Positions 19,220 to 58,487 of a DNA stretch of 64,000 nucleotides are shown one piece after another; the stretch's first letter is position 1; every line of letters starts with the position of its first letter. Both the position numbers and the translations under genes were made by a program. Where the stretch lies: IMG/VR virus record IMGVR_UViG_3300044949_001956, positions 1 to 64,000 of that record; one strand, given 5' to 3'. Under the pieces are notes generated by a model, which saw only the letters and a list, made by a program, of their open reading frames with translations, ran no database searches and was not told the origin of the DNA. This DNA comes from a virus.

Positions 19220-19227
19220 TATAAATA
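19220..19227 (+). promoter_or_regulatory. T4-type late promoter TATAAATA
   Basis: Perfect late-promoter box on the plus strand in the gap between nrdA and the small membrane protein gene starting at 19248, about 20 nt before its ATG. Confidence 0.65.
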
Positions 19228-36390: not shown

Positions 36391-37092
36391 TTATCTCTTG
36401 ACCTGCTCTCTGATGACTTGCATGACCGTCTGATAGCACTCGGACACCCGAGACCTCATGGGCCTGATGTTCTTGTTCTTGTGGGCGACGAGTATCATCG
36501 ACTGAGTCTTCTTGATGTCGCCGTACTCTTTCTTCCTCTGGGCCGCGGTGCCACCCTTGGTCTTCCTGAACTTCTCCAGCTCTGAGTGACTGACGTGGCT
36601 GAGCTCGGGCCTGCGCACTATGTCAACGTGTTGGGCTCTACCCGTCTTTGGATGATACCCGTGCACGTTGACGCCGCCCATCTTCCTCATCTTCTGCCAG
36701 ATACCCAAGCCGCCGACTGACTGCTCTTTACCGGTCAGAATGTGGTTGTGCTTCGTGATGAGATGGTGATACAGCTTGTGCACACCCGCCCCCGGGCGGG
36801 CGACCGCCATCTCGATGGCGTGGGACTTGCCCTGTTTGACTGCATTGACGTGGGCGTCCACCTTGTCGTCGTGACCGACTACGCTGAAGTGGTGATCACC
36901 TGCTTCATCAACGCCGTGGTAGACCTTGCGACCGTCTTCCATGGTGGAGTGCAGCTTCATCTTCTTTTTGGCGCCTGGATCGACCGACTTCTTTACGTCA
37001 GCGATGCCCTTACCCAAGAGCTTCTTGTATGCAAATCCGCCTGCTGTTCTCTTGATGTCGGTCCTCAGAACCGCTTCGTCTAGGTCTTCCAT
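36391..37092 (-). CDS. Possible head-packaged GNAT-like protein (233 aa)
   Basis: Starts MEDLDEAVLRTDIKRTAGG; LDE followed by Ala fits a prohead-protease cut near residue 6. The middle has GKSHAIEMAVARPGAGVHKLYHHL and HNHILTGKEQSVGGLGIWQKM, which resembles a GNAT-like acyltransferase fold of phage proteins. The C-terminus is basic. Family assignment is tentative. Its ATG overlaps the end of the upstream ligase-nucleotidyltransferase gene (TGATG). Confidence 0.5.
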   Translation of the reverse strand: MEDLDEAVLRTDIKRTAGGFAYKKLLGKGIADVKKSVDPGAKKKMKLHSTMEDGRKVYHGVDEAGDHHFSVVGHDDKVDAHVNAVKQGKSHAIEMAVARPGAGVHKLYHHLITKHNHILTGKEQSVGGLGIWQKMRKMGGVNVHGYHPKTGRAQHVDIVRRPELSHVSHSELEKFRKTKGGTAAQRKKEYGDIKKTQSMILVAHKNKNIRPMRSRVSECYQTVMQVIREQVKR

Positions 37093-39179
37093 CAGAACAC
37101 GGTTCCCTTTGCCTTTTTAGCATTTATGGACTTTGAGTGATCAATGAAGCCTCTGAGTCCCCACTTCTGGAGTCTCTTGTTTAGGTCCTTGACCTCTGCG
37201 TCGTACACCTTGAGATTCTTGTCGTGGTAGTCATTGATTGCATCGGATGAAACGACGGGATTGCCGGTCACCAATCCGAGACCTCGGATATCAGCTGTGG
37301 ACTCCTCATTGAGCTTGCCGCGACGCTTTAGCTCCGCTCTGGCTCTGGTACCGATAACATCATTCCTCTTGGCATATTTACCTAGCGATATGTTGCTGGT
37401 CTCAGGCCCTATCCTTATGTCCATGGCCTTACGCACGTCGTCGTATAGTTCTCTGGAATGCTCTGGGTTGACGTGCTGTGGAATTCCCTTCTTGAACTCG
37501 CCGAACTTACCTGTCATGGCATGACCGCGCATCTTCGATGCAGACATTCCAGACACGCCTTCGGCATCAGGATCTCTCTCACCCGCGGAAACCACGTTGA
37601 TCGACTTGAAGTTGAACTCCTTGTGTGGTCCGTTGTAGCGGTCAAGCAACTTCTTGTACTCGTCGATCCTGTCGGAGCCAGCGACCATTGTGACGTGCGT
37701 GACGCCTCGGCTGTGCAGGTCCTTGAGCTGATGTATGAACGTCGGAGCTTCCTTACTTGCAACGGACATGTTAGCATTGGGAAAGAACCTCTGAGCGTGC
37801 TTGAGCTTCTGCTCTGCTGACAGCGGATTTTTCTCTGGATCTTGAGAGTGTGAGAGAACTATCGAGTGACCTGCCTTGTTTGCGTTGGCCAACTCCATGA
37901 CTCGATCGACCAGGGCGCCGTGACCGACGGTCGGTGGGTTCATCCGCCCGAACGCGAACACGTGGTGGATCTCGCTCTCAGTCGGTGCAGTTGCCTCTGG
38001 GTCGCCCTTGCCTCTGTTATTGGCAAAGTTGAGTCTGGAGAACTCCGCCCTGTCAACCAGCTTTGTTGGTCTGCCGTTTCTGATGGAAACAAATCCCTCG
38101 GGCTTGACTTGCTTGCCGCCCACGGTGTGCTCAAACTCTGTAGGATTACCTAAGGCTTTAACCAGAGTGTCCTTGGCCTGCTGCAGGTGACTGTGAAGCT
38201 CTAGAGCCTTAGAGAACTGATCGGCATTCCCTCCCACGTCGTCGATAAACTTGTTGTACTGATCCTCTTTTCTTTTCTTTGCGGAATCAGTCTTTACCTT
38301 CGAGACGTCGGACTCCCTCTTGGCCTCTAGGTGCTTGCTGTATCCCGCAGCTGTGGGCTTGGTTCCGTCCCTGACAGTTTGGTTGATGTAAGGCTTTAGG
38401 TACTGATCGTGTGCAGAGAGCTTGTCAAACATGCCCAAGTCGAGAGCCCTGTAGGCTTCCAGAGCATTGTCCTTGTGACCCTGGTATTCCTGCTGCACCT
38501 TGCTGGTGTATCTGGATGGATCAACTTCCTTGATCTCTGGGTTCACCAGGTTGACGTGCGGATCCTGCTTGAACGCACCGTGGTCTACATCAAAGCCCGC
38601 TTTCATGTCGGCCAGCTTCTTGCCGGAGTACTTGGTGTGTACCACAAATCCGATCTTTGATGCGGCAATCTTTCTACCCTGAGGCGAGTCCTTATCGGCG
38701 GAGTACGTTATGGTGTTGGGCGCAAACTTGTATCTGCCGTTCTCATCTTCTACGTCGGGTCTCTCGTACAGGAAGTCTCCCTGATAGACTCCGCCCGTGT
38801 GCGGCATGACCTTGGGGAGGTGCTCTAGGGCGGCCTTCAGCTTTGCTGCCAGACCAGGAGCGTGACCGTGATTCCTGTCAACGTCTTCTGGGGTGTAGTT
38901 GATCTTGGGATTGACATTGAACGCCGACTTTGATGCCACAAAGAAGTTGCCAGTCTCTGGGTCCTTGCCGAATACCACACTGGGTGATCCGTCATACTTC
39001 ACAGTCAGTCTTGACTTTGACTTCTTGCCCAACAGAATGTTGTGGACATCTTCAAGGTTGTCAGCTGCATGGGCAACGCCCTCGTCACCGCCGTGGATGA
39101 TGTGATCCTCTGCATGCTCTAAGTGCTTAAGCTTGTCAACGTCCAGAGACTCAGTAAGAAATCTTGCAAATGCTAACAC
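37092..39179 (-). CDS. Ligase-like / nucleotidyltransferase fusion with capsid-targeting-like N-terminus
   Basis: 695 residues. N-terminus MLAFARFLTESLDVDKL resembles a T4 capsid-targeting sequence (cleavage after LTE). Residues about 57-380 carry ligase-type motifs: KYDGSPS near 61 (motif I KxDG), GGVYQGDFLYE, and EGFVSIRNG with KLV (motifs IV and V). Residues about 400-570 form an HxGH-type nucleotidyltransferase: FAFGRMNPPTVGHG and GMSASKMRGH (the ISST-type motif). A likely role is nucleic acid end repair or NAD-linked chemistry delivered with the DNA. Domain calls are by eye. Confidence 0.65.
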   Translation of the reverse strand: MLAFARFLTESLDVDKLKHLEHAEDHIIHGGDEGVAHAADNLEDVHNILLGKKSKSRLTVKYDGSPSVVFGKDPETGNFFVASKSAFNVNPKINYTPEDVDRNHGHAPGLAAKLKAALEHLPKVMPHTGGVYQGDFLYERPDVEDENGRYKFAPNTITYSADKDSPQGRKIAASKIGFVVHTKYSGKKLADMKAGFDVDHGAFKQDPHVNLVNPEIKEVDPSRYTSKVQQEYQGHKDNALEAYRALDLGMFDKLSAHDQYLKPYINQTVRDGTKPTAAGYSKHLEAKRESDVSKVKTDSAKKRKEDQYNKFIDDVGGNADQFSKALELHSHLQQAKDTLVKALGNPTEFEHTVGGKQVKPEGFVSIRNGRPTKLVDRAEFSRLNFANNRGKGDPEATAPTESEIHHVFAFGRMNPPTVGHGALVDRVMELANANKAGHSIVLSHSQDPEKNPLSAEQKLKHAQRFFPNANMSVASKEAPTFIHQLKDLHSRGVTHVTMVAGSDRIDEYKKLLDRYNGPHKEFNFKSINVVSAGERDPDAEGVSGMSASKMRGHAMTGKFGEFKKGIPQHVNPEHSRELYDDVRKAMDIRIGPETSNISLGKYAKRNDVIGTRARAELKRRGKLNEESTADIRGLGLVTGNPVVSSDAINDYHDKNLKVYDAEVKDLNKRLQKWGLRGFIDHSKSINAKKAKGTVF

Positions 39180-39199: not shown

Positions 39200-40207
39200 T
39201 CAGTGACCAAGAATCTTCTTTATCTTTTTGGCGCCCTCATCCGTACCGATGTGGGTGTGTGACTTGTCTAGCTTCCTGATCATGAACTGAACGGTGCGGG
39301 CGTTGTCGTTCACCCTGTCCTTCTGTCGGATCCTAAATCTACCGACACCCTCCATTGATGGGAGACCGAGCTTGTGCCTGTCCTTGTCTCGGCTCAGACC
39401 TGCTCTGTACGTGCCGTGGGAGTCTAGATGAACAACATCGACGTGGTGGTCCTTCATGTACGCGTGAGCTGGAGACAAGTCATGATCGTCTGAAAACACC
39501 TCTTCAGCTGTGGTCCGATGCGCTGGCTTTACGTAGTCCTTACCCTGCACGTCGTTGATGTGGTCAATCAGCTTCTTCTTTTTGCCGTTTACCGTAACGT
39601 GGGCCTTTTCAATTGCTGCGGCGTACTCCGGTCTATTCTGTCTGGCCTTATCGCTGATGTGCCAGCGCCCGGTCTTCGGATGTCTCGTGAGAGTTAGCTG
39701 ACCGAAGGCAGCCGTGAGATTTGACTTGTGCTCTCCTGTAACCGCGGATTCATTTGTGGTGACGCCCTCAGAACCACTGATCTTCTTTTGAGTCTTGCCT
39801 CTCTTGTCGATGAGATGAAAGTCATTTCCTGCCGTAGACCCTGCACCCCCGCCACTCATCAGACCATGACCGTTAAGGTGCTTGACCAGGGTGTTTTCCT
39901 GAGCCAGACCTATGTTCTTTCTGTCACTGACCTTCTTGATCTTGCTGATGGGGACAGCGACCTTGTTTGAACCTTCCTTGCTCACAACCACATGGTGCAC
40001 ACCGTTGCTGTCGACGTGATGTGAGTGCATGGTGACCTTATCACCTGTCCTGAAGTCTCCTACATCGCCGTCGATCTCGTGTGACAGAGGCTTGTGAGCC
40101 GGCTGTCCTGCAACAAATGGCTTAATATACTTGCTTGCATGATATTCACCTCTGGCGCCAGATGCGGTGAGCTTAGCTTCTGAGATAAAGCTAACAAATG
40201 AGAGCAT
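39200..40207 (-). CDS. Possible head-packaged PD-(D/E)XK-like nuclease (335 aa)
   Basis: N-terminus MLSFVSFISEAKLTASGARG closely parallels the T4 internal-protein targeting sequence (pattern M-K-T-Y-Q-E-F-I-A-E-A), with a predicted prohead-protease cut after ISE. The middle has NDFHLIDKRG and, 28 residues later, TGEHKSNLTAAFGQLTL, which fits a D-x(n)-E-x-K nuclease core and its following Gln. The C-terminus is basic. Driven by a late promoter at 40240-40247, beside a hairpin that touches its ribosome binding site. Confidence 0.55.
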   Translation of the reverse strand: MLSFVSFISEAKLTASGARGEYHASKYIKPFVAGQPAHKPLSHEIDGDVGDFRTGDKVTMHSHHVDSNGVHHVVVSKEGSNKVAVPISKIKKVSDRKNIGLAQENTLVKHLNGHGLMSGGGAGSTAGNDFHLIDKRGKTQKKISGSEGVTTNESAVTGEHKSNLTAAFGQLTLTRHPKTGRWHISDKARQNRPEYAAAIEKAHVTVNGKKKKLIDHINDVQGKDYVKPAHRTTAEEVFSDDHDLSPAHAYMKDHHVDVVHLDSHGTYRAGLSRDKDRHKLGLPSMEGVGRFRIRQKDRVNDNARTVQFMIRKLDKSHTHIGTDEGAKKIKKILGH

Positions 40208-40239: not shown

Positions 40240-40247
40240 TATTTATG
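40240..40247 (-). promoter_or_regulatory. T4-type late promoter (CATAAATA)
   Basis: Minus strand, immediately after the T-run of the terminator at 40249-40279 and about 33 nt before the ATG of the 335-aa gene. Confidence 0.6.
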
Positions 40248-40248
40248 C

Positions 40249-40279
40249 AAAAAGGGATCGGGCCCTAAGACCCGATCCC
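40249..40279 (-). terminator. Rho-independent terminator
   Basis: On the minus strand, a perfect 9-bp stem GGGATCGGG / CCCGATCCC with an 8-nt loop, followed by TTTTT. It ends the presumed noncoding transcript from 40389 and insulates the next late promoter. Confidence 0.85.
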
Positions 40280-40389
40280 CTGCATTCAAGAGTAAGACTG
40301 TCGAGCGGAACCCCACCGTGCTCCCGACTGTTCCTTTCGGTTATCCCCTGTGCCTCTGCTTGTCTAGATCAAGCAAGTCTTACTTCATT
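40249..40389 (-). ncRNA. Candidate structured noncoding RNA (about 140 nt)
   Basis: A perfect late promoter TATAAATA (40395-40402) is followed by about 110 nt without a usable reading frame and then a strong terminator (40249-40279). The transcript can fold: GTAAGACT (40383-40376) pairs with AGTCTTAC (40299-40292) and encloses a TGCTTG/CAAGCA hairpin (about 40357-40375) and a GTCG-GAGC/GCTCGAC stem (about 40300-40328). No similarity to a known RNA family was recognised. Promoter, terminator and multi-stem fold together support a real RNA. Confidence 0.65.
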
Positions 40390-40394
40390 GAGCT

Positions 40395-40402
40395 TATTTA
40401 TA
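40395..40402 (-). promoter_or_regulatory. T4-type late promoter TATAAATA
   Basis: Perfect late consensus on the minus strand, upstream of the candidate noncoding RNA and just beyond the end of the 85-aa gene. Confidence 0.7.
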
Positions 40403-40407
40403 CAAGT

Positions 40408-40665
40408 TTAGCCGATTCTATGAGACGGTTGCAAAATAAATGCAGGCGTCCACCCGTCGAAGGCCCGCCCTTCCTGTAGTGATTTGCGGAACTTATGAGC
40501 CTCATCAAACGTGTAAAACTGCTTGATGACCTGGTCAGTGGCCCGTTCGATTACCTGAAAGCCGTCATACTGAAACACGCCCTCAGGCTTTGCGGTCGGC
40601 TTGCCTAGGACATAGTACTTGCCCGGCTCGGGAGTCACGTTGTCTGAGTACATCTTCTTCTTCAC
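40408..40665 (-). CDS. Hypothetical protein (85 aa)
   Basis: Contains PGKYYVLGKPTAKPEG and a helical EAHKFRKSLQEG with a GWTPAFIL ending. No family recognised. Last gene of the helicase operon; its ATG overlaps the upstream stop. Confidence 0.6.
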   Translation of the reverse strand: MKKKMYSDNVTPEPGKYYVLGKPTAKPEGVFQYDGFQVIERATDQVIKQFYTFDEAHKFRKSLQEGRAFDGWTPAFILQPSHRIG

Positions 40666-47834: not shown

Positions 47835-48032
47835 CTAGTGAAAAGATTTTTGTATCCGCTCCGCTGAGGTCACATACACGTCGGCGGTTTTTCGGTCTAA
47901 GATATAAATAGGAGTTAGATCGGCTGCCTTGAACTCCTCTCCGTACACAAGAAGCTTAGCAAAGCTGTTGTCGGTACCGGACAGGTAATCTGCAGCGATC
48001 CTAATCCTCTCCTCGGAGACTATCTCGAACAT
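47835..48032 (-). CDS. Hypothetical protein (65 aa)
   Basis: Starts MFEIVSEERIRIAADYLSGT, with AGGGAAAG upstream. Small alpha/beta sequence with TPIYILDRKTADVYVTSA. No family. Its start overlaps the divergent i-spanin start by 2 nt, so its control region lies inside the i-spanin gene. The opposite strand inside it carries a late promoter. Confidence 0.6.
   Translation of the reverse strand: MFEIVSEERIRIAADYLSGTDNSFAKLLVYGEEFKAADLTPIYILDRKTADVYVTSAERIQKSFH
47903..47910 (+). promoter_or_regulatory. T4-type late promoter TATAAATA for the spanin pair
   Basis: Perfect consensus on the plus strand, inside the oppositely oriented 65-aa gene and about 120 nt before the i-spanin ATG. Confidence 0.65.
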
Positions 48033-53212: not shown

Positions 53213-53297
53213 TGGTGGGAGGTGCTGGGTTCGAACCAGCCGTGACCGAAGTCGCCGGATTTACAGTCCGGTGCCCGTCCACTCGAGCATACCTCCC
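53213..53297 (-). tRNA. tRNA-Tyr(GTA)
   Basis: 85 nt with acceptor GGGAGGT / ACCTCCC, discriminator A and encoded CCA. The anticodon loop is CTGTAAA, giving GTA. The long variable arm expected for Tyr is present. T-loop TTCGAAC. Confidence 0.92.
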
Positions 53298-53301
53298 AAA
53301 G

Positions 53302-53375
53302 TACCCGCTGTCGGATTCGAACCGACGCTGAAAGGCTTTTAAGGCCCATACCTCTGCCTGTTGGGTTAAGCGGGC
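53302..53375 (-). tRNA. tRNA with UAA anticodon (Leu-type) but short variable arm
   Basis: Acceptor GCCCGCT / AGCGGGT, T-arm GTCGG TTCGAAT CCGAC, anticodon loop CTTAAAA giving UAA, a Leu anticodon. The variable region is only about 5 nt, whereas tRNA-Leu is normally a class II tRNA with a long arm. CCA is not encoded. Charging identity is uncertain. Confidence 0.75.
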
Positions 53376-53389
53376 AGACACACTATATA

Positions 53390-53464
53390 TGGTAGTTCCT
53401 GTCAGATTCGAACTGACGACCTACTGATTAAGAGTCAGCTGCTCTACCGCTGAGCTAAGGAACT
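53390..53464 (-). tRNA. tRNA-Lys(CTT)
   Basis: Acceptor AGTTCCT / AGGAACT, anticodon loop CTCTTAA (CTT), T-loop TTCGAAT, encoded CCA. Confidence 0.9.
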
Positions 53465-53470
53465 GTAGGG

Positions 53471-53547
53471 TGGTGTTCCCGGCGAGACTCGAACTCACGA
53501 CCCCCAGATTAGGAATCTGGTGCTCTATCCAGCTGAGCTACGGGAAC
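53471..53547 (-). tRNA. tRNA-Arg(CCT)
   Basis: Acceptor GTTCCCG / CGGGAAC, anticodon stem CCAGA/TCTGG with loop TTCCTAA (CCT), T-loop TTCGAGT, encoded CCA. Confidence 0.92.
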
Positions 53548-53550
53548 AAG

Positions 53551-53844
53551 TCACTTGAAGAACTCATCTGCATTGAAGGCCTTGTCGTCGATCCACACGT
53601 CGTACGAGGGCTTACCCAACTTCAGGCTCGTGTACTTGCAACCCCAGTCGGCAAGCTGATTGTGAGTCAACTCAGTCCAGTCCTTGCCAGATCCAGAGCC
53701 GCGGGCCGTCCAGTAGTGGATCTCATGGCCTTGGTCATAGAGTCGATTGAACAAGTAGATCCGATCCATCAAGGGTTGTGCGTGGGGATAGTCGCCCTCG
53801 GTGTTGGTGCAGATCGTGCCGTCAATGTCAACCAGATACTTCAT
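53551..53844 (-). CDS. HAD-like phosphatase
   Basis: 97 residues from MKYLVDIDGTICTNTEGDYP. The HAD motif I DIDGT is present, YWTARGSGSG matches motif II (T/S), and DVWIDDKAFNADEFF gives the C-terminal acidic pair. Such minimal HADs occur beside capsule and LPS genes and in phages; it could dephosphorylate a sugar phosphate (for example a GmhB-type step missing from the heptose set), but this is inference. Overlaps the zinc-finger gene upstream by 17 nt. Confidence 0.78.
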   Translation of the reverse strand: MKYLVDIDGTICTNTEGDYPHAQPLMDRIYLFNRLYDQGHEIHYWTARGSGSGKDWTELTHNQLADWGCKYTSLKLGKPSYDVWIDDKAFNADEFFK

Positions 53845-54025
53845 CTGTAAACTTCTCGTAAGTGATTGTTGTCTTCTTGACCATGCGACCAGATCCACCG
53901 CAGGGCTTGCAAGGGATCTTGAACGTGTCGTACTCTCGCTTGTGGTAGTCGGTCATCTCACTGCCCCAGATGTAGCCCTTGCCCTCACAAGAGGCGCAGA
54001 GGATGACTTCAACGGTGGTCTTCAT
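53828..54025 (-). CDS. DnaJ-type zinc-finger small protein (65 aa)
   Basis: Starts MKTTVEVILCASCEGKGYIW. Two CxxCxGxG motifs (CASCEGKG and CKPCGGSG) make one DnaJ cysteine-rich zinc-binding unit without a J domain. Such proteins may act as small chaperone or RNA-binding factors. Start chosen because the region upstream is the tRNA-Pro gene. Confidence 0.75.
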   Translation of the reverse strand: MKTTVEVILCASCEGKGYIWGSEMTDYHKREYDTFKIPCKPCGGSGRMVKKTTITYEKFTDEVSG

Positions 54026-54044
54026 AGCGATTATCCTCTGGAGT

Positions 54045-54119
54045 TGGTCTGAGAGACAGGATTTGAACCTACAACCCCTGCGTCCCAAACGCAGTGCTCT
54101 ACCGTTGAGCTACTCTCAG
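54045..54119 (-). tRNA. tRNA-Pro(TGG)
   Basis: Acceptor CTGAGAG / CTCTCAG, anticodon stem CTGCG/CGCAG with loop TTTGGGA (TGG), T-loop TTCAAAT, encoded CCA. Confidence 0.92.
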
Positions 54120-54281
54120 TTAGATCTTAGTCTTTGCATCTAGCTCTTTGATTCGACGCTTGAAGTACTCTATCACACTTACCGTATCTTCGTCAACACT
54201 TTCCACAGGGATGAGGTTTAAGGTGTTGATCAGTTCATCTTCAAAGACAGACTTCTTGAGAACGTCGATGGAATAGCTCAA
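54120..54281 (-). CDS. Small hypothetical protein (53 aa), TTG start
   Basis: Open frame between two tRNA genes, starting at TTG with GGAGAG about 6 nt upstream: (L/M)SYSIDVLKKSVFEDELI and so on to ...KELDAKTKI. Helical, charged and protein-like. Not recognised; the rare start codon lowers confidence. Confidence 0.5.
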   Translation of the reverse strand: MSYSIDVLKKSVFEDELINTLNLIPVESVDEDTVSVIEYFKRRIKELDAKTKI

Positions 54282-54299
54282 TGCAATCTCTCCAAAAGG

Positions 54300-54390
54300 T
54301 GGCGGAAGGGGTGAGATTCGAACTCACGGTAGGGTATCAGCCTACGTCGGTTTTCAAGACCGGTGCCTTAAACCACTCGGCCACCCTTCC
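54300..54390 (-). tRNA. tRNA-Ser(TGA)
   Basis: Acceptor GGAAGGG / CCCTTCC, discriminator G, encoded CCA, D-arm TGGCCGAGTGG typical of Ser, loop CTTGAAA (TGA), long variable arm (TAGGCTGATACCCTA) as expected for Ser, T-loop TTCGAAT. Confidence 0.93.
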
Positions 54391-54401
54391 GCAAGCCCTA
54401 C

Positions 54402-54890
54402 TTAGAAGCGATAGTTCAGACCGAGGGTTACACGGTCCGCAGTCACGTCTCCACTAAAAGCCTCTACACGACGATAGCGAGCGTCGACCTGCCAGTTGGC
54501 GCTCAGGTTGTAAGCCACGCCTACGCCGGCATTCCACAGCGCCTGAGGATCATTGGCAGCATCGGCAAGTGCATTGAAGCCGTAGCCAGCGCCCACCAGG
54601 ACATACGGAACCACGGGACCCAGAGGATACCCAGCAGTCACGTTTGCAAAGACCGCCTGACCGCCACGCTGAGTCTCCGTCTGAGCGGTGAAGTCACCGA
54701 GTGCCTCTACAGCAAGGAAGCGGTTGACGCGATACCCTACGGTTGCAGTTCCGCCCCACTGGGCATCTTCAACCGAGCGGCCCTGAGTCGCTGCGGCGGC
54801 GCCGACATAGACGCCAGACTGAGCCGCGGCTTCAGTAGCAAAGGCGCCGACGGCAAGAGCAGCGACGAGAGCAATACCAGTCTTGTTCAT
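54402..54890 (-). CDS. Outer-membrane beta-barrel protein
   Basis: 162 residues. Signal peptide (MNKTGIALVAALAVGAFATEAAA), then alternating strands typical of an 8-stranded OMP barrel (GTATVGYRVNRFLAVEALGD, VDARYRRVEAF) ending in LGLNYRF, the BAM-type C-terminal Phe signature. OmpA-like/Omp25-like family. It could alter the infected cell surface or block superinfection (inference). GGAG lies 8 nt upstream of the ATG, just after the tmRNA gene. Confidence 0.8.
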   Translation of the reverse strand: MNKTGIALVAALAVGAFATEAAAQSGVYVGAAAATQGRSVEDAQWGGTATVGYRVNRFLAVEALGDFTAQTETQRGGQAVFANVTAGYPLGPVVPYVLVGAGYGFNALADAANDPQALWNAGVGVAYNLSANWQVDARYRRVEAFSGDVTADRVTLGLNYRF

Positions 54891-54919
54891 GTAGTTTCTC
54901 CATATCGAGTTGTGAGGTC

Positions 54920-55203
54920 GGTTGATTCTGTTTCTAGGCTCAACCGTAAGCCCAAGAGATTACGCCGCTAAGCGAGTCTCAACAAAGCCGTTATCGTTGG
55001 CGTTTGTGTTGGTTTGTTGCGTTGGGTAGCTTCCGCACCATTGCCTACTTCGACCCTTACTGTCATCAGTCGATCCTGTTTCCGCCCCAAAGGAAAACTG
55101 TGACGTATCATCACTGACAGAGGTCACAGCCGTGTTATTGGTGGAGCGGCGGAGTGCTGCCCTCCGGTCCTGTCTGACCTATTTGGTCGCTATCATCAGC
55201 AAC
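54920..55203 (-). ncRNA. ssrA: Two-piece (circularly permuted) tmRNA
   Basis: Read on the minus strand. The acceptor piece comes first and ends CCGCTCC-A-CCA (55148-55139), with a T-arm CGGAG/CTCCG just before. After an about 50-nt spacer (itself with a CTGTGAC/GTCACAG hairpin) the coding piece begins GGGGCGG (55088-55082), pairing with CCGCTCC to rebuild the 7-bp acceptor stem. The tag frame reads ANDNGFVETRLAA followed by TAA (stop at 54960-54962), matching proteobacterial tags (AND...LAA). Permuted tmRNA is the alphaproteobacterial form. Outer ends are approximate. The promoter lies directly upstream. Confidence 0.88.
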
Positions 55204-55207
55204 AAGG

Positions 55208-55215
55208 TATTTATA
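55208..55215 (-). promoter_or_regulatory. T4-type late promoter TATAAATA overlapping the tmRNA -10 box
   Basis: A perfect late consensus that shares bases with the sigma70-type -10 of the tmRNA promoter, so the same site could be used early and late. Confidence 0.55.
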
Positions 55216-55237
55216 CACCAGTCCTAGTCGAAGTCAA
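55210..55237 (-). promoter_or_regulatory. Early sigma70-type promoter for tmRNA
   Basis: Minus-strand TTGACT, 16-bp spacer, TATAAA. The predicted +1 (about 55203) is just before the acceptor piece; it overlaps the 3' end of the 103-aa gene. Confidence 0.75.
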
Positions 55238-55535
55238 CCTTTTCCGACACAAGAGTTCGAGTCTCAGTGACCTTAGTGACTTGAATCGTCTCGAGCTTTG
55301 GAGAGTAATAGCTGGGCCCGACCTTTGATCTTGCTACGCTTATAGCCTTCTCTTTGGTGTCGAACTTGTATGCCAGCGTCTCGTTGGTGATCCACTGAAA
55401 GATGTTGTACTGGTAGTCGATGGAGACCCAAGCTGGTACATTCTCCTCCATCATCACGTACCCGGCTGAGTTCTCAGACTGATTCATCCGGACCGATACC
55501 GTGTAGTACTCTGTCTTGATCTCGTTAACTGTCAT
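55224..55535 (-). CDS. Hypothetical protein (103 aa)
   Basis: Starts MTVNEIKTEYYTVSVRMNQS. Beta-rich with repeated Thr/Val, ending TETRTLVSEKVDFD. No family. Overlaps the 61-aa membrane protein gene by 4 nt. Confidence 0.6.
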   Translation of the reverse strand: MTVNEIKTEYYTVSVRMNQSENSAGYVMMEENVPAWVSIDYQYNIFQWITNETLAYKFDTKEKAISVARSKVGPSYYSPKLETIQVTKVTETRTLVSEKVDFD

Positions 55536-55717
55536 CGGTTCTTGATGAGCTTGTAGAGTTCTGGGGCTACAACAAAGGCTCCGAACACGAGGAAGGGCGC
55601 TGCAAGCATGAACAGTGACAGAGCAGCGCCGAAGATGAATCCTAGACCGATACCGAGTAAGATGTAGCCAAACGCTAGTATCAAAAGTCCGATGATGAGT
55701 CTTTCCTGATCAGGCAT
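55532..55717 (-). CDS. Small membrane protein with two TM segments (61 aa)
   Basis: Hydrophobic throughout (IIGLLILAFGYILLGIGLGF, then LSLFMLAAPFLVFGAFVV) with a short basic tail YKLIKNR. Coupled to neighbours by overlaps. Function unknown. Confidence 0.65.
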   Translation of the reverse strand: MPDQERLIIGLLILAFGYILLGIGLGFIFGAALSLFMLAAPFLVFGAFVVAPELYKLIKNR

Positions 55718-56030
55718 CTAACTCTCCCAGGGGATCAAAAATGTTGACTGTCTCTTCCTTTCTGGGTTCCATGATGACTCTACTGGGGTCATATCCAGTG
55801 TAGTACCAGAAGGCTATTCTAAGTGCGGACAGAGTCTTGAACTGTATGGAGGCGCCCTTGGCGATCATGATTGCCGCCGGCTCTCCGGAGCTCTTTCGTA
55901 CGTAGTCAATGAACTCCTCGTCGAAGAGGCACTGAGTTTCCAGTCGATTGATGTCACGAAGCAATGCCTCGCAAGTCTCTTTGTGCTTCTTGTTGAGGAA
56001 CGGAACGTCAGAGAACCTTATGTAAGCCAT
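55710..56030 (-). CDS. Hypothetical protein (106 aa)
   Basis: Starts MAYIRFSDVPFLNKKHKETC. Helical with ETQCLFDEEFIDYVRKSSGE and an acidic tail. No family. First gene of a three-gene run. Its ribosome binding site (GGGAGAG) is inside a 12-bp hairpin whose loop holds a late-promoter-like box. Confidence 0.65.
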   Translation of the reverse strand: MAYIRFSDVPFLNKKHKETCEALLRDINRLETQCLFDEEFIDYVRKSSGEPAAIMIAKGASIQFKTLSALRIAFWYYTGYDPSRVIMEPRKEETVNIFDPLGELDA

Positions 56031-56032
56031 CA

Positions 56033-56078
56033 GTCTCTCCCGTCAGTGTGTGTGCCTATTTAATGAGACGGGAGAGAC
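56033..56078 (-). promoter_or_regulatory. Hairpin covering the ribosome binding site of the 106-aa gene, with an internal late-type promoter
   Basis: Perfect 12-bp stem GTCTCTCCCGTC / GACGGGAGAGAC. The 3' arm contains GGGAGAG, the Shine-Dalgarno, 5 nt before the ATG. The 22-nt loop contains ATTAAATA (56057-56064), so transcripts starting there lose the 5' arm. Confidence 0.65.
56057..56064 (-). promoter_or_regulatory. T4-type late promoter-like box (ATTAAATA)
   Basis: Two mismatches to TATAAATA; lies in the loop of the hairpin at 56033-56078, about 27 nt before the ATG at 56030. Confidence 0.45.
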
Positions 56079-56095
56079 GCGGTTCAGTGCACCGC

Positions 56096-57139
56096 CTACG
56101 TCCAGATTGATTGACCGTTCGGACTACGAATACGATCTCTCCAAGCAGCTCGGATCAGCTCATGAGTCGCAGCAGGGAGCGGAATGTACTCTAGACGAGA
56201 GGCAATGTCACTGCCCTGACGGTATGCCCAATCAAAGAAGCGCATCGTATTCAAGCTGCCCGCCACCTTGTCCGCCGTCGGGTTGGTCGGCAACAGGATG
56301 TAGGTGGGCGAGGTGATCGGCCACACCGTCGCACCGTTCAGGTCGATGGTGTCGGCGGCGAAGTTCGGCACATTCCAATCGGCCGCCGCGGCGGTCGCCA
56401 GGAAGGCAGGCGGCTCCGGGCGCACGAAGTTGCCGGACTTGTTCCGGATCTGCGTGGTCGGCATCCGGTTCACCACGGCATAGGCGTTCTCGATGTAGCC
56501 GATCGTGCCCGGGGTGTTGCGGATGATGTTCGACACGCCTTCATTGCCGCGCGCGCCATTGCCCACCGGCCAGCGCACGGAGGTCCCGGCACCCGGACCA
56601 TTGCGCCACTCTTGGGAGATGCGCGAGAGATAGGTCGTCCACACCCAGGTCGTGCCCGAGCCATCGGCACGGTAGGCGACCGAAAGCGGCAGGTTCGGGA
56701 TACGGATGTCGCGGTTCAGCTCGGCGATCCGCGGATCGTTCCAGCGGGTGATCCGGCCGAAGAAGATGTCGGTGATGATTTCCGGCGTCAGGCGCAGCGC
56801 ATTGTCCGCCACACCCGGCAGGTTCGCGCTCAGCACGACCGAGCCCATGACGGTCGGGAACTGCAGAAGGTTGCGCTCGGCGAGCTGCGCCGTGGTCAGC
56901 GGCGCGTCAGAGGCGCCGAAATCGACCGTACGCGCGGTGATCTGGTTGATGCCGCCGCCGGAGCCGATTGACTGGTAGTTCAGCTGCACGCTGATGGCTT
57001 CTCGTGCGGCCTGCGCCCAGCGCTCATAGAGCGGACGGGGGAAGGTGGCGCCGGCGCCGGTGATCGTAAGTGTTTGTGCTGATAGACTGGGGGATGCTAG
57101 TAGAGCGGCACCAGTCAGCATTAATGTTCGTCGGTCCAT
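56096..57139 (-). CDS. pstS: Periplasmic phosphate-binding protein PstS
   Basis: 347 residues with a signal peptide (MDRRTLMLTGAALLASPSLSA). The P-binding sites are visible: ITGAGATFPRPLYERW, QSIGSGGGINQI, DFGASDAPL and VAYRADGSGTTWVW. It binds phosphate for the host Pst transporter. The middle of the gene (about 56.23-57.06 kb) is much richer in GC and GC-ending codons than its flanks, as expected for a recently host-derived gene. AAGGAG lies before the ATG. Confidence 0.92.
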   Translation of the reverse strand: MDRRTLMLTGAALLASPSLSAQTLTITGAGATFPRPLYERWAQAAREAISVQLNYQSIGSGGGINQITARTVDFGASDAPLTTAQLAERNLLQFPTVMGSVVLSANLPGVADNALRLTPEIITDIFFGRITRWNDPRIAELNRDIRIPNLPLSVAYRADGSGTTWVWTTYLSRISQEWRNGPGAGTSVRWPVGNGARGNEGVSNIIRNTPGTIGYIENAYAVVNRMPTTQIRNKSGNFVRPEPPAFLATAAAADWNVPNFAADTIDLNGATVWPITSPTYILLPTNPTADKVAGSLNTMRFFDWAYRQGSDIASRLEYIPLPAATHELIRAAWRDRIRSPNGQSIWT

Positions 57140-57179
57140 AATATCTCCTTTTCATGATGTACAAATCACATTTACAGAA

Positions 57180-57251
57180 AGCGGATGGCCAGACTCGAAC
57201 TGGTCTTCTACGGCTTGGAAGGCCGGGGCACAACCCTTATACCACACCCGC
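57180..57251 (-). tRNA. tRNA-Gly(TCC)
   Basis: Acceptor GCGGGTG / CATCCGC, anticodon loop CTTCCAA (TCC), T-loop TTCGAGT. CCA not encoded. 72 nt. Confidence 0.88.
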
Positions 57252-57499
57252 AAAACTAGCTGAGCCTCACGCCCTTGGCTCGAATGTTGTCTGGCATTAC
57301 CAATGAGCGACGTCCGCTATGCGGTCCGTATCCAGATCAAACATACTAGATGACGTTCTACTTTATCAGGTATGTCGCTCCCCCGTAGGCGAACTTACCA
57401 CGCCCATTATTCAGCACCACTGAGCCTGGACCCTTACGAACGCCTGACCACGATTGTAGAACTACGTCTCCTGTCACCTAGTATACCACTACTTAGTGT
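57252..57499. other. Mostly noncoding stretch between tRNA-Gly and phosphatase gene
   Basis: Apart from the 39-codon frame listed at 57358-57477, only fragments of protein-like sequence are seen on the minus strand (for example PDNIRAKGVRLS at about 57256-57291), broken by stops. No tRNA, promoter of the repeated type or strong hairpin recognised. It may hold decayed small genes. Confidence 0.4.
57358..57477 (-). CDS. Possible small protein (39 aa), GTG start
   Basis: Frame (V/M)TGDVVLQSWSGVRKGPGS and so on to ...YGGATYLIK looks protein-like, but the ribosome binding site is poorly placed (AGGAG lies inside the frame). Low confidence. Confidence 0.3.
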   Translation of the reverse strand: MTGDVVLQSWSGVRKGPGSVVLNNGRGKFAYGGATYLIK

Positions 57500-57862
57500 T
57501 CACCACTTATAGGCCCGCCGGATAATTTCGACAAGCTCCGGGTCCCGGTACTCATAGTTATCCGGGATCATGAGATTGAACACCGGCGTATTGAGACCGC
57601 AATCAGCCAGCAGCTTATTAACCACCATCTCATGGTCAAGCTGGACGCACACAATCTCATCCGCCCAAGTCAGCAGCACCCGATCCAGAGGGACCAGTGC
57701 ATAGTCGTGGATACCACAAGCCCGGGTGTTGTAGTTATACGGGTCCTGTGAAAGCACCCACGCGATGGTAGGAGACCGCAGAAGGCCCGCCGAACAAACC
57801 GTCAGAACCTTCTTGTATGAACCCTGGTGCGGGTTCTTGCAGTTGTGCAGCCGGTTCATCAT
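57500..57862 (-). CDS. Low-molecular-weight protein tyrosine phosphatase-like protein
   Basis: 120 residues. The CX5R loop is visible as VCSAGLLRSPT, preceded by a VLTV strand as in LMW-PTPs and the wider phage phosphatase group; ALVPLDRVLLTWADEIVCV follows. The Asp of the usual DPxx general-acid loop is not obvious. AAAGG lies 9 nt before the ATG. Likely a phosphatase on host or phage proteins. Confidence 0.75.
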   Translation of the reverse strand: MMNRLHNCKNPHQGSYKKVLTVCSAGLLRSPTIAWVLSQDPYNYNTRACGIHDYALVPLDRVLLTWADEIVCVQLDHEMVVNKLLADCGLNTPVFNLMIPDNYEYRDPELVEIIRRAYKW

Positions 57863-57991
57863 GTATGCATGCCTTTCTTCTGGAATACTTGTCGAAGACC
57901 AGGGCCCTGGAACCCATGGGTGGTTTTATCGGTTCTACCACCAGTCACCTTGAAGCCGTGTTCCCCATTAGCAACGGCTAGTCTTCGAACT

Positions 57992-58067
57992 TGGTGAGAG
58001 TGTGGTGGAGTCGAACCACCTCCGGCGTAGGCCACGTCTCCGCTCAGCTCCCAGCTCTTACACTCTC
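57992..58067 (-). tRNA. tRNA-like sequence, isotype unassigned
   Basis: 76 nt with acceptor GAGAGTG / CACTCTC (extendable to 8 bp), discriminator A, encoded CCA, and a perfect T-arm GGTGG TTCGACT CCACC. No anticodon stem-loop with a U33 fits the middle section, so it may be a degenerate or unusual tRNA. Confidence 0.5.
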
Positions 58068-58073
58068 AAACTT

Positions 58074-58168
58074 TGGTAGTCGTGACAGGACTCGAACCTG
58101 CAACCGCGCACCAATCTAGTGCATACGAGAGGTATAAGCTCTCCGCTCTGCCATTGAGCTACACGACC
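58074..58168 (-). tRNA. tRNA with UAU anticodon (Ile-type) and expanded variable arm
   Basis: 95 nt with acceptor GGTCGTG / CACGACT and encoded CCA. D-arm TAGCTCAATGGCAGAGC. Anticodon stem GAGAG/CTCTC with loop CTTATAC gives UAU. An 18-nt hairpin-forming insert (GCAC/GTGC) lies in the variable region, unusual for Ile. T-loop TTCGAGT. Confidence 0.75.
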
Positions 58169-58173
58169 AAAAA

Positions 58174-58250
58174 TGGTGCCCGCAGAGAGATTTGAACTCC
58201 CGACCTACTGATTACAAATCAGTTGCTGCTACCAGCTGAGCTATACGGGC
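58174..58250 (-). tRNA. tRNA-Thr(TGT)
   Basis: Acceptor GCCCGTA / TGCGGGC, anticodon stem ACTGA/TCAGT with loop TTTGTAA (TGT), T-loop TTCAAAT, encoded CCA. Confidence 0.9.
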
Positions 58251-58411
58251 TAGTTGGCTCGGGCTAACACCACCACGTTCGCAGTAGCGCTTGATCTCTT
58301 ATCGCACCCCCGAGCAGCACGATCGTATCCTACTACTAACCCGAACCGCTATCTCTGCTGTTACACTAACGATCCGGGATCTCAGCCCAAATAGGCGTAA
58401 GCTGAAGATTT

Positions 58412-58487
58412 TGGCTGGCCTGGCAGGGCTCGAACCTGCGACCCGGTGATTAACAGTCACCTGCTCTACCAGCTGAGCTACAGACCA
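58412..58487 (-). tRNA. tRNA-Asn(GTT)
   Basis: Acceptor TGGTCTG / CAGGCCA, anticodon stem GGTGA/TCACC with loop CTGTTAA (GTT), T-loop TTCGAGC, discriminator G, encoded CCA. The 160 bases before it (58251-58411) hold no gene I can support. Confidence 0.93.

Follow-up and report, generated by a model that had tools for sequence, protein, structure and literature searches.

Genomic context and layout of the RNA gene

The 64,000 nt of DNA analysed here (hereafter the window) come from a 107,845-base record of an uncultured virus in IMG/VR. Its minus strand carries genes for a DNA polymerase at the gp43 position, uvsX and the gp41 primase-helicase (DnaB_C), followed by two ORFs of 66 and 85 aa; the names gp43 and uvsX are based on gene order next to gp41 and on annotated relatives. 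This gene set is a T4-like replication cluster. Of all large phages, those of the T4 type have been studied best, and they rank with the most abundant phages in water. The 85-aa ORF (p85, 40408–40665) lies between gp41 and the RNA gene described below, after which a late module follows on the same strand. It comprises a 335-aa ORF (39200–40207), which is the next gene after the RNA, a 695-aa late protein with DUF6267 and a cytidylyltransferase-like domain (37092–39179), a 233-aa ORF and a virion structural protein (phrog_1645).

The first-pass annotation had proposed a new structured RNA between a late promoter and a terminator, and the parts it named are present on the minus strand: a perfect late promoter, a 9-bp terminator with TTTTT, and a closing stem around at least two inner hairpins (40374–40358 and 40328–40300). 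The promoter TATAAATA occupies positions 40395–40402. Promoters of this type drive late transcription, as established for the late genes of T4, where they lie at −13 to −6 relative to the transcript start. Applying the T4 spacing to TATAAATA puts the predicted start at A40389 and, with the terminator, gives a predicted transcript of about 141 nt including the terminator (40249–40389), which is also matched by models R1 and R2. The TA of the T4 late promoter has been placed at −13/−12 (PMC2988020).

Read in the direction of transcription, the closing helix P1 opens with GTAAGACT (40376–40383) and is completed by AGTCTTAC (40292–40299). Enclosed by it are the P2 hairpin GCTTG-ATCTAGA-CAAGC (40358–40374), which carries the palindrome TCTAGA in its loop, the conserved junction J2/3 AGAGGCAC (40350–40357), the P3 region (40335–40349), the conserved junction J3/4 GGAACAG (40328–40334), the final G of which opens P4, and the P4 hairpin itself (40300–40328), with a 5' bulge and the invariant loop UGGGGUU at 40315–40309. 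The intrinsic terminator (40249–40281) consists of the 9-bp stem GGGATCGGG/CCCGATCCC and the run TTTTT. Directly behind it stands a second late-type promoter, CATAAATA (40240–40247). As this promoter follows the terminator and precedes the gene at 39200–40207, the RNA need not belong to the mRNA of that gene.

We also considered whether a small protein gene had been overlooked. Short frames do exist on both strands, and the ORF list contains a 41-aa GTG frame on the RNA strand that starts inside the RNA and runs beyond the terminator; frames of ≥40 aa that are fully contained in the RNA are absent from its strand, in line with the earlier statement that the interval holds no usable reading frame. 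Among the aligned relatives introduced below, a stop-free sense frame through the RNA is found in only 24 of 91 members, the members range in length from 109 to 150, and the substitutions are compensatory for pairing, all of which speak against a coding function, the chance of which we regard as negligible.

The genes on either side of the RNA show some features of their own. p85 occurs in most relatives and has a conserved end, F-D-G-W/F-T-P-x-F; it is also kept at loci where the RNA is missing (L018, L024, HTVC008M). The DUF6267 part of the 695-aa protein contains a KYDG stretch that is, by eye, reminiscent of motif I of nucleotidyltransferases and ligases. Late proteins encoded after the RNA often start with M..F..FI.E, as seen for both 39200–40207 and 37092–39179 and for the first late genes of L016, L025, L034 and L053. 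We take it to resemble the start by which internal head proteins of T4 are targeted to the capsid, and proteins that carry it may be packaged in the head.

Late promoters and terminator

TATAAATA occurs five times in the window against an expectation of 0.21, a count that was reached in none of 100 shuffles. Among the relatives with enough sequence, a late-type promoter lies 5' of P1 in 100 of 102 and an intrinsic terminator follows the 3' strand of P1 in all 102, while 89 of 102 have an additional late promoter for the next gene within 60 nt of the terminator. In 26 cases among the relatives the promoter takes the variant form ACTAAATA, which agrees with the a/gC late-promoter variant reported for Aeh1 (PMC2988020). 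Late transcription units of T4 are read from promoters served by gp55, gp33 and gp45 (PMC2988020), and the window and its relatives share with them the upstream TATAAATA or a/gC element; the T4 units are mRNAs, unlike the non-coding RNA considered here, and models R1–R3 found no counterpart of the RNA in the T4 genome. Since the promoter is of the T4 late type, we infer that the RNA would be made late in infection by the gp55/gp33/gp45 system.

Conserved structure and covariation

Folding energy was a poor guide to the structure. The entire stretch gave z = −3.3, and without the terminator the value dropped to a non-significant −0.9. As so little remains once the terminator is removed, fold energy alone proves little, and we rejected the z-score as evidence. 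The case for a real RNA rests instead on conservation with covariation, for which three alignments were compared.

In the first alignment (A1, 54 sequences), evaluated with RNAalifold and a pair count, P1 and P4 were recovered; all eight pairs of P1 had changed on both sides, and 94.8% of cells were paired, compared with 37–47% in controls slid by 1–3 columns. The second, better aligned set (A2, 24 sequences) yielded all four helices including P2 and P3, with double changes in 24 of 30 pairs and the four core pairs of P2 formed in 24 of 24 sequences. The third (A3) comprises 91 sequences aligned to the covariance model and, being fitted to the model, favours the structure: here 87.8% of cells were paired against 34–42% in the slid controls, and 793 double-change cells were counted against 244 ± 18 in shuffles. 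In A3, P4 had 100% of its pairs formed and showed numerous double changes; P2 covaries in A2 and A3. P3 is the weakest helix (60–64% of cells paired). In the window's own subgroup it amounts to a hairpin of 2 bp at most, and in other subgroups it covaries. Compensatory changes thus exceed the controls in A1, A2 and A3, as would be seen for an autonomous structured RNA gene. Model R1 matched the window RNA (40276–40395) with 89.8 bits; model R2, which was built from the 24 A2 sequences only, with window-like sequences excluded, still recovered it (40276–40392) with 60.4 bits and an E-value of 2e-13.

Three stretches of unpaired letters are nearly invariant: GGCA between P2 and P3, GGAA between P3 and P4, and the P4 heptaloop UGGGGUU. 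GGC(A) and GGAA are each found in 91 of 91 aligned members. This invariance of the core is partly built in by the search patterns; UGGGGUU is also present in all displayed members that were found through similarity of gp41. A pairing of UGGGGUU with AACC of J2/3 or with CCA of the leader was considered and dropped, because those letters vary across subgroups.

Taken over more than 90 aligned relatives, compensatory changes are abundant and the stems are conserved together with promoter and terminator, which, by the covariation check that the first-pass annotation had suggested, supports the proposal of a new structured RNA between the two signals.

Relatives and their distribution

Homologs were found on well over 150 contigs in IMG/VR, which come from uncultured T4-like phages; the number is a lower bound. 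A search of IMG/VR with gp41 gave 80 loci, and blastn with the RNA detected homologs at the same place in the closest of them. The pattern of the conserved core had at least 120 matches in IMG/VR, and with a broader pattern about 70 of the added loci listed had an upstream late promoter and were member-like, including new subgroups.

Outside these viral contigs the searches were negative. In 84,980 bacterial and archaeal genomes the core pattern matched 14 times, about the number estimated for chance, and models R1 and R3 identified no convincing member among the 14. The two of these matches that were inspected, L202 and L211, have no homology to the phage genes and neither lies near phage genes; L202 was also rejected as its match sits within a protein gene. 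BLAST of 50,697 phage records with the window RNA, with members and with a concatenate of member cores returned weak, non-orthologous matches and no ortholog; the match in Vibrio phage pVa-21 is short and weak and stands in an unrelated context. Models R1–R3 detected no member in 19 isolate or single-cell phage records (among them T4, KVP40, 44RR, P-SSM2, S-PM2, phiM12, phiM9, Cr30, HTVC008M, Melnitz, DLP6, pf16 and Ma-LMM01), and the positive controls were detected; stricter filters were used for scans of larger sets. Searches of published papers, with few subscription titles among them, turned up no description of the RNA.

Genomic site and an inverted clade

At almost every locus that includes flanking sequence, gp43-uvsX-gp41-(p85) lies before the RNA and a late gene of the 695-aa type after it. 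The RNA gene has kept its place beside the genes of the replisome even between deeply diverged phages, whose gp41 identity goes down to about 55–60%. On the cyanophage/pelagiphage side (e.g. HTVC008M) and in L018/L019 and L024 the genes are in this order too, and the RNA is absent.

In a set of loci with a P1 of the GGGUGCGUG type, the site is the same, and the RNA and its promoter are on the opposite strand. Several of the loci displayed have a terminator-like inverted repeat that separates p85 from the RNA. In the gp41 tree the inverted loci form one clade (SH-aLRT 99), of which only L055 was scored as having no RNA; its contig ends soon after gp41. As the whole unit is inverted and the RNA conserved, a leader, a riboswitch, a 3' UTR or a simple insulator is hard to reconcile with the data, and we infer from the inversion an action in trans.

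A cis element would fit the fixed site between the two modules, the usual orientation on the same strand and the terminator that follows; it could belong to the next late gene, as its riboswitch, attenuator or leader, or be the 3' UTR of the replication operon. Such an element should lie on the same strand upstream of the gene it controls, which is not the case in the inverted clade. The next gene, moreover, mostly has its own late promoter past the terminator, and a promoter stands between the upstream gene and the RNA, so that we regard regulation in cis as very unlikely. Still less probable is that the region merely insulates the replication genes from the late genes, with the RNA as a by-product, as the first-pass annotation had offered among its possibilities. 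A strong terminator does lie at the module border and would by itself suffice for insulation, which makes insulation as the sole function implausible: the promoter, the covariation of four helices and the invariant loops would all be needless, and the conserved letters of loop and junctions, as well as the intact copy inverted at the same site, do not fit it either.

The inverted clade (L258, L266, L274, L303 and relatives) has a structural peculiarity in that the 5' bulge of P4 is enlarged to an extra hairpin, e.g. GCAU..AUGC, by which P4 becomes a three-way junction.

Comparison with known RNAs

None of the 4227 families of Rfam 15 matched the RNA at the gathering cut-off, either in the window or at 12 loci with relatives, and at E-values up to 10 only chance matches appeared at these sites. 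Neither ARAGORN nor the Rfam tRNA model called a tRNA or tRNA-like element at the site. A tRNA-like identity was rejected; the P4 loop of seven bases reads UGGGGUU, and a terminator forms the end of the predicted transcript.

Nearest in spirit are GOLLD and ROOL, which are likewise structured non-coding RNAs of unknown function encoded by phages. These RNAs of phages and prophages have a conserved structure and form multimers through kissing loops, and the level of GOLLD rises during lysis (PMC12286853). They differ from the present RNA in their size of hundreds of nt, in their frequent location near tRNA islands and in having Rfam models of their own, which gave no match in the window or at the 12 loci with relatives. 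Multimerisation, which GOLLD and ROOL undergo, is for the present RNA only a guess from the palindromic P2 loops.

The pRNA of phi29 acts in the packaging motor and associates by intermolecular pairing of loops. It is also a small structured phage RNA; it comes, however, from another phage group, and the loop pairing predicted for the present RNA is self-complementary and confined to part of the family. The Rfam model of the phi29 pRNA had no match in the window or at the 12 loci either. T4 itself produces the small stable RNAs C and D, which are encoded in the tRNA cluster and whose role is unknown. They resemble the present RNA as small RNAs of a T4-type phage and differ in their locus, and as models R1–R3 match nothing in T4, they are not detectable relatives. 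Phage Melnitz, finally, has a two-piece tmRNA and a glutamine riboswitch (PMC9004378); these are likewise structured RNAs of marine T4-like phages, but they belong to known Rfam families and are unrelated.

We conclude that the RNA family is new and widespread; the novelty lies at the level of the RNA family, as structured phage RNAs are already known as a kind. Since neither the RNA-family catalogue nor any of the cultured phages checked contains it, an RNA of late infection may have gone unnoticed.

A putative trans-acting RNA of late infection

The explanation that we consider highly likely is a stand-alone, trans-acting structured non-coding RNA gene of T4-like phages, and action in trans is also what we deem probable for its product. 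In the proposed course of events, the late RNA polymerase of the phage would start at TATAAATA and produce a compact RNA with a four-helix junction, made up of the closing helix P1, P2, P3, P4 with its UGGGGUU loop, and the GGCA and GGAA junctions. Transcription would stop at the terminator, and the RNA would be released and act in trans. Because the invariant letters of junctions and loop sit within covarying helices, we think of a protein as partner of the core, and less of another RNA. The core might, as a tentative proposal, bind a phage or host protein and give rise to an RNA-protein particle for late development, for which head assembly, packaging or control of late gene expression are candidate roles. 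A conserved autonomous late RNA would imply an RNA step in the late programme, which T4 and the cyanophages either lack or accomplish otherwise.

The autonomy of the unit, with its own promoter and terminator, and the conserved unpaired stretches would also suit a regulatory small RNA of late infection whose UGGGGUU loop or purine-rich junctions pair with mRNAs of the phage or the host. The conserved letters, however, belong to a junction of multiple helices, several of which covary, an architecture that goes beyond the needs of a pairing RNA, and we judge a base-pairing regulator to be unlikely.

Palindromic P2 loops

The P2 loop of the window and of several other subgroups contains a perfect palindrome of 6 nt (UCUAGA, CUGCAG, GUGCAC or UGCGCA). 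Among the distinct P2 loops of 6–9 nt, 7 of 31 have such a palindrome against 1.6 expected, and the maximum in 5000 letter shuffles was 6, with the reservation that loops of relatives are not independent. In many subgroups the P2 loop is non-palindromic. For the lineages with a palindrome it is conceivable, though rather doubtful, that the RNA works as a kissing-loop dimer.

A narrower version of the trans-acting RNA, drawn in analogy to the phi29 pRNA or to GOLLD and ROOL, would be a scaffold, for instance for DNA packaging or the assembly of heads, whose main working form is a homodimer or larger oligomer joined by kissing P2 loops. The excess of palindromes (7 of 31 loops) and the position of the gene at the border of the late module, which includes the virion structural protein, are consistent with such a scaffold. 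The many subgroups with non-palindromic loops and the relatedness of the loops weigh against it, as does the outer pair of the palindrome, which could form inside the hairpin, and we hold it to be improbable. Combining the two ideas, an undescribed class of phage RNA may be pictured in which self-association by palindromic P2 loops and binding of a protein to the UGGGGUU/GGAA/GGCA core together provide a late scaffold for virion production; this more specific picture is speculative and less probable still.

Other elements in the window

Apart from the structured RNA, the window encodes a permuted, two-piece tmRNA on the minus strand (54960–55203; Rfam RF04321, 93.4 bits) with the tag ANDNGFVETRLAA. 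A TATAAATA late promoter lies at 55208–55215 on the same strand, and the start predicted from it coincides with the 5' end of the tmRNA match, a position that suggests late expression of the tmRNA. Two-piece tmRNAs are known from marine T4-like phages (PMC9004378). Ten tRNA genes are clustered around the tmRNA (53213–58487, minus strand). On the plus strand, against the direction of most genes, lie two more TATAAATA sites, at 19220–19227 and 47903–47910; the former precedes a 99-aa ORF (FKLVADLGFPIASAL) that is similar to the gene after the RNA in L062.
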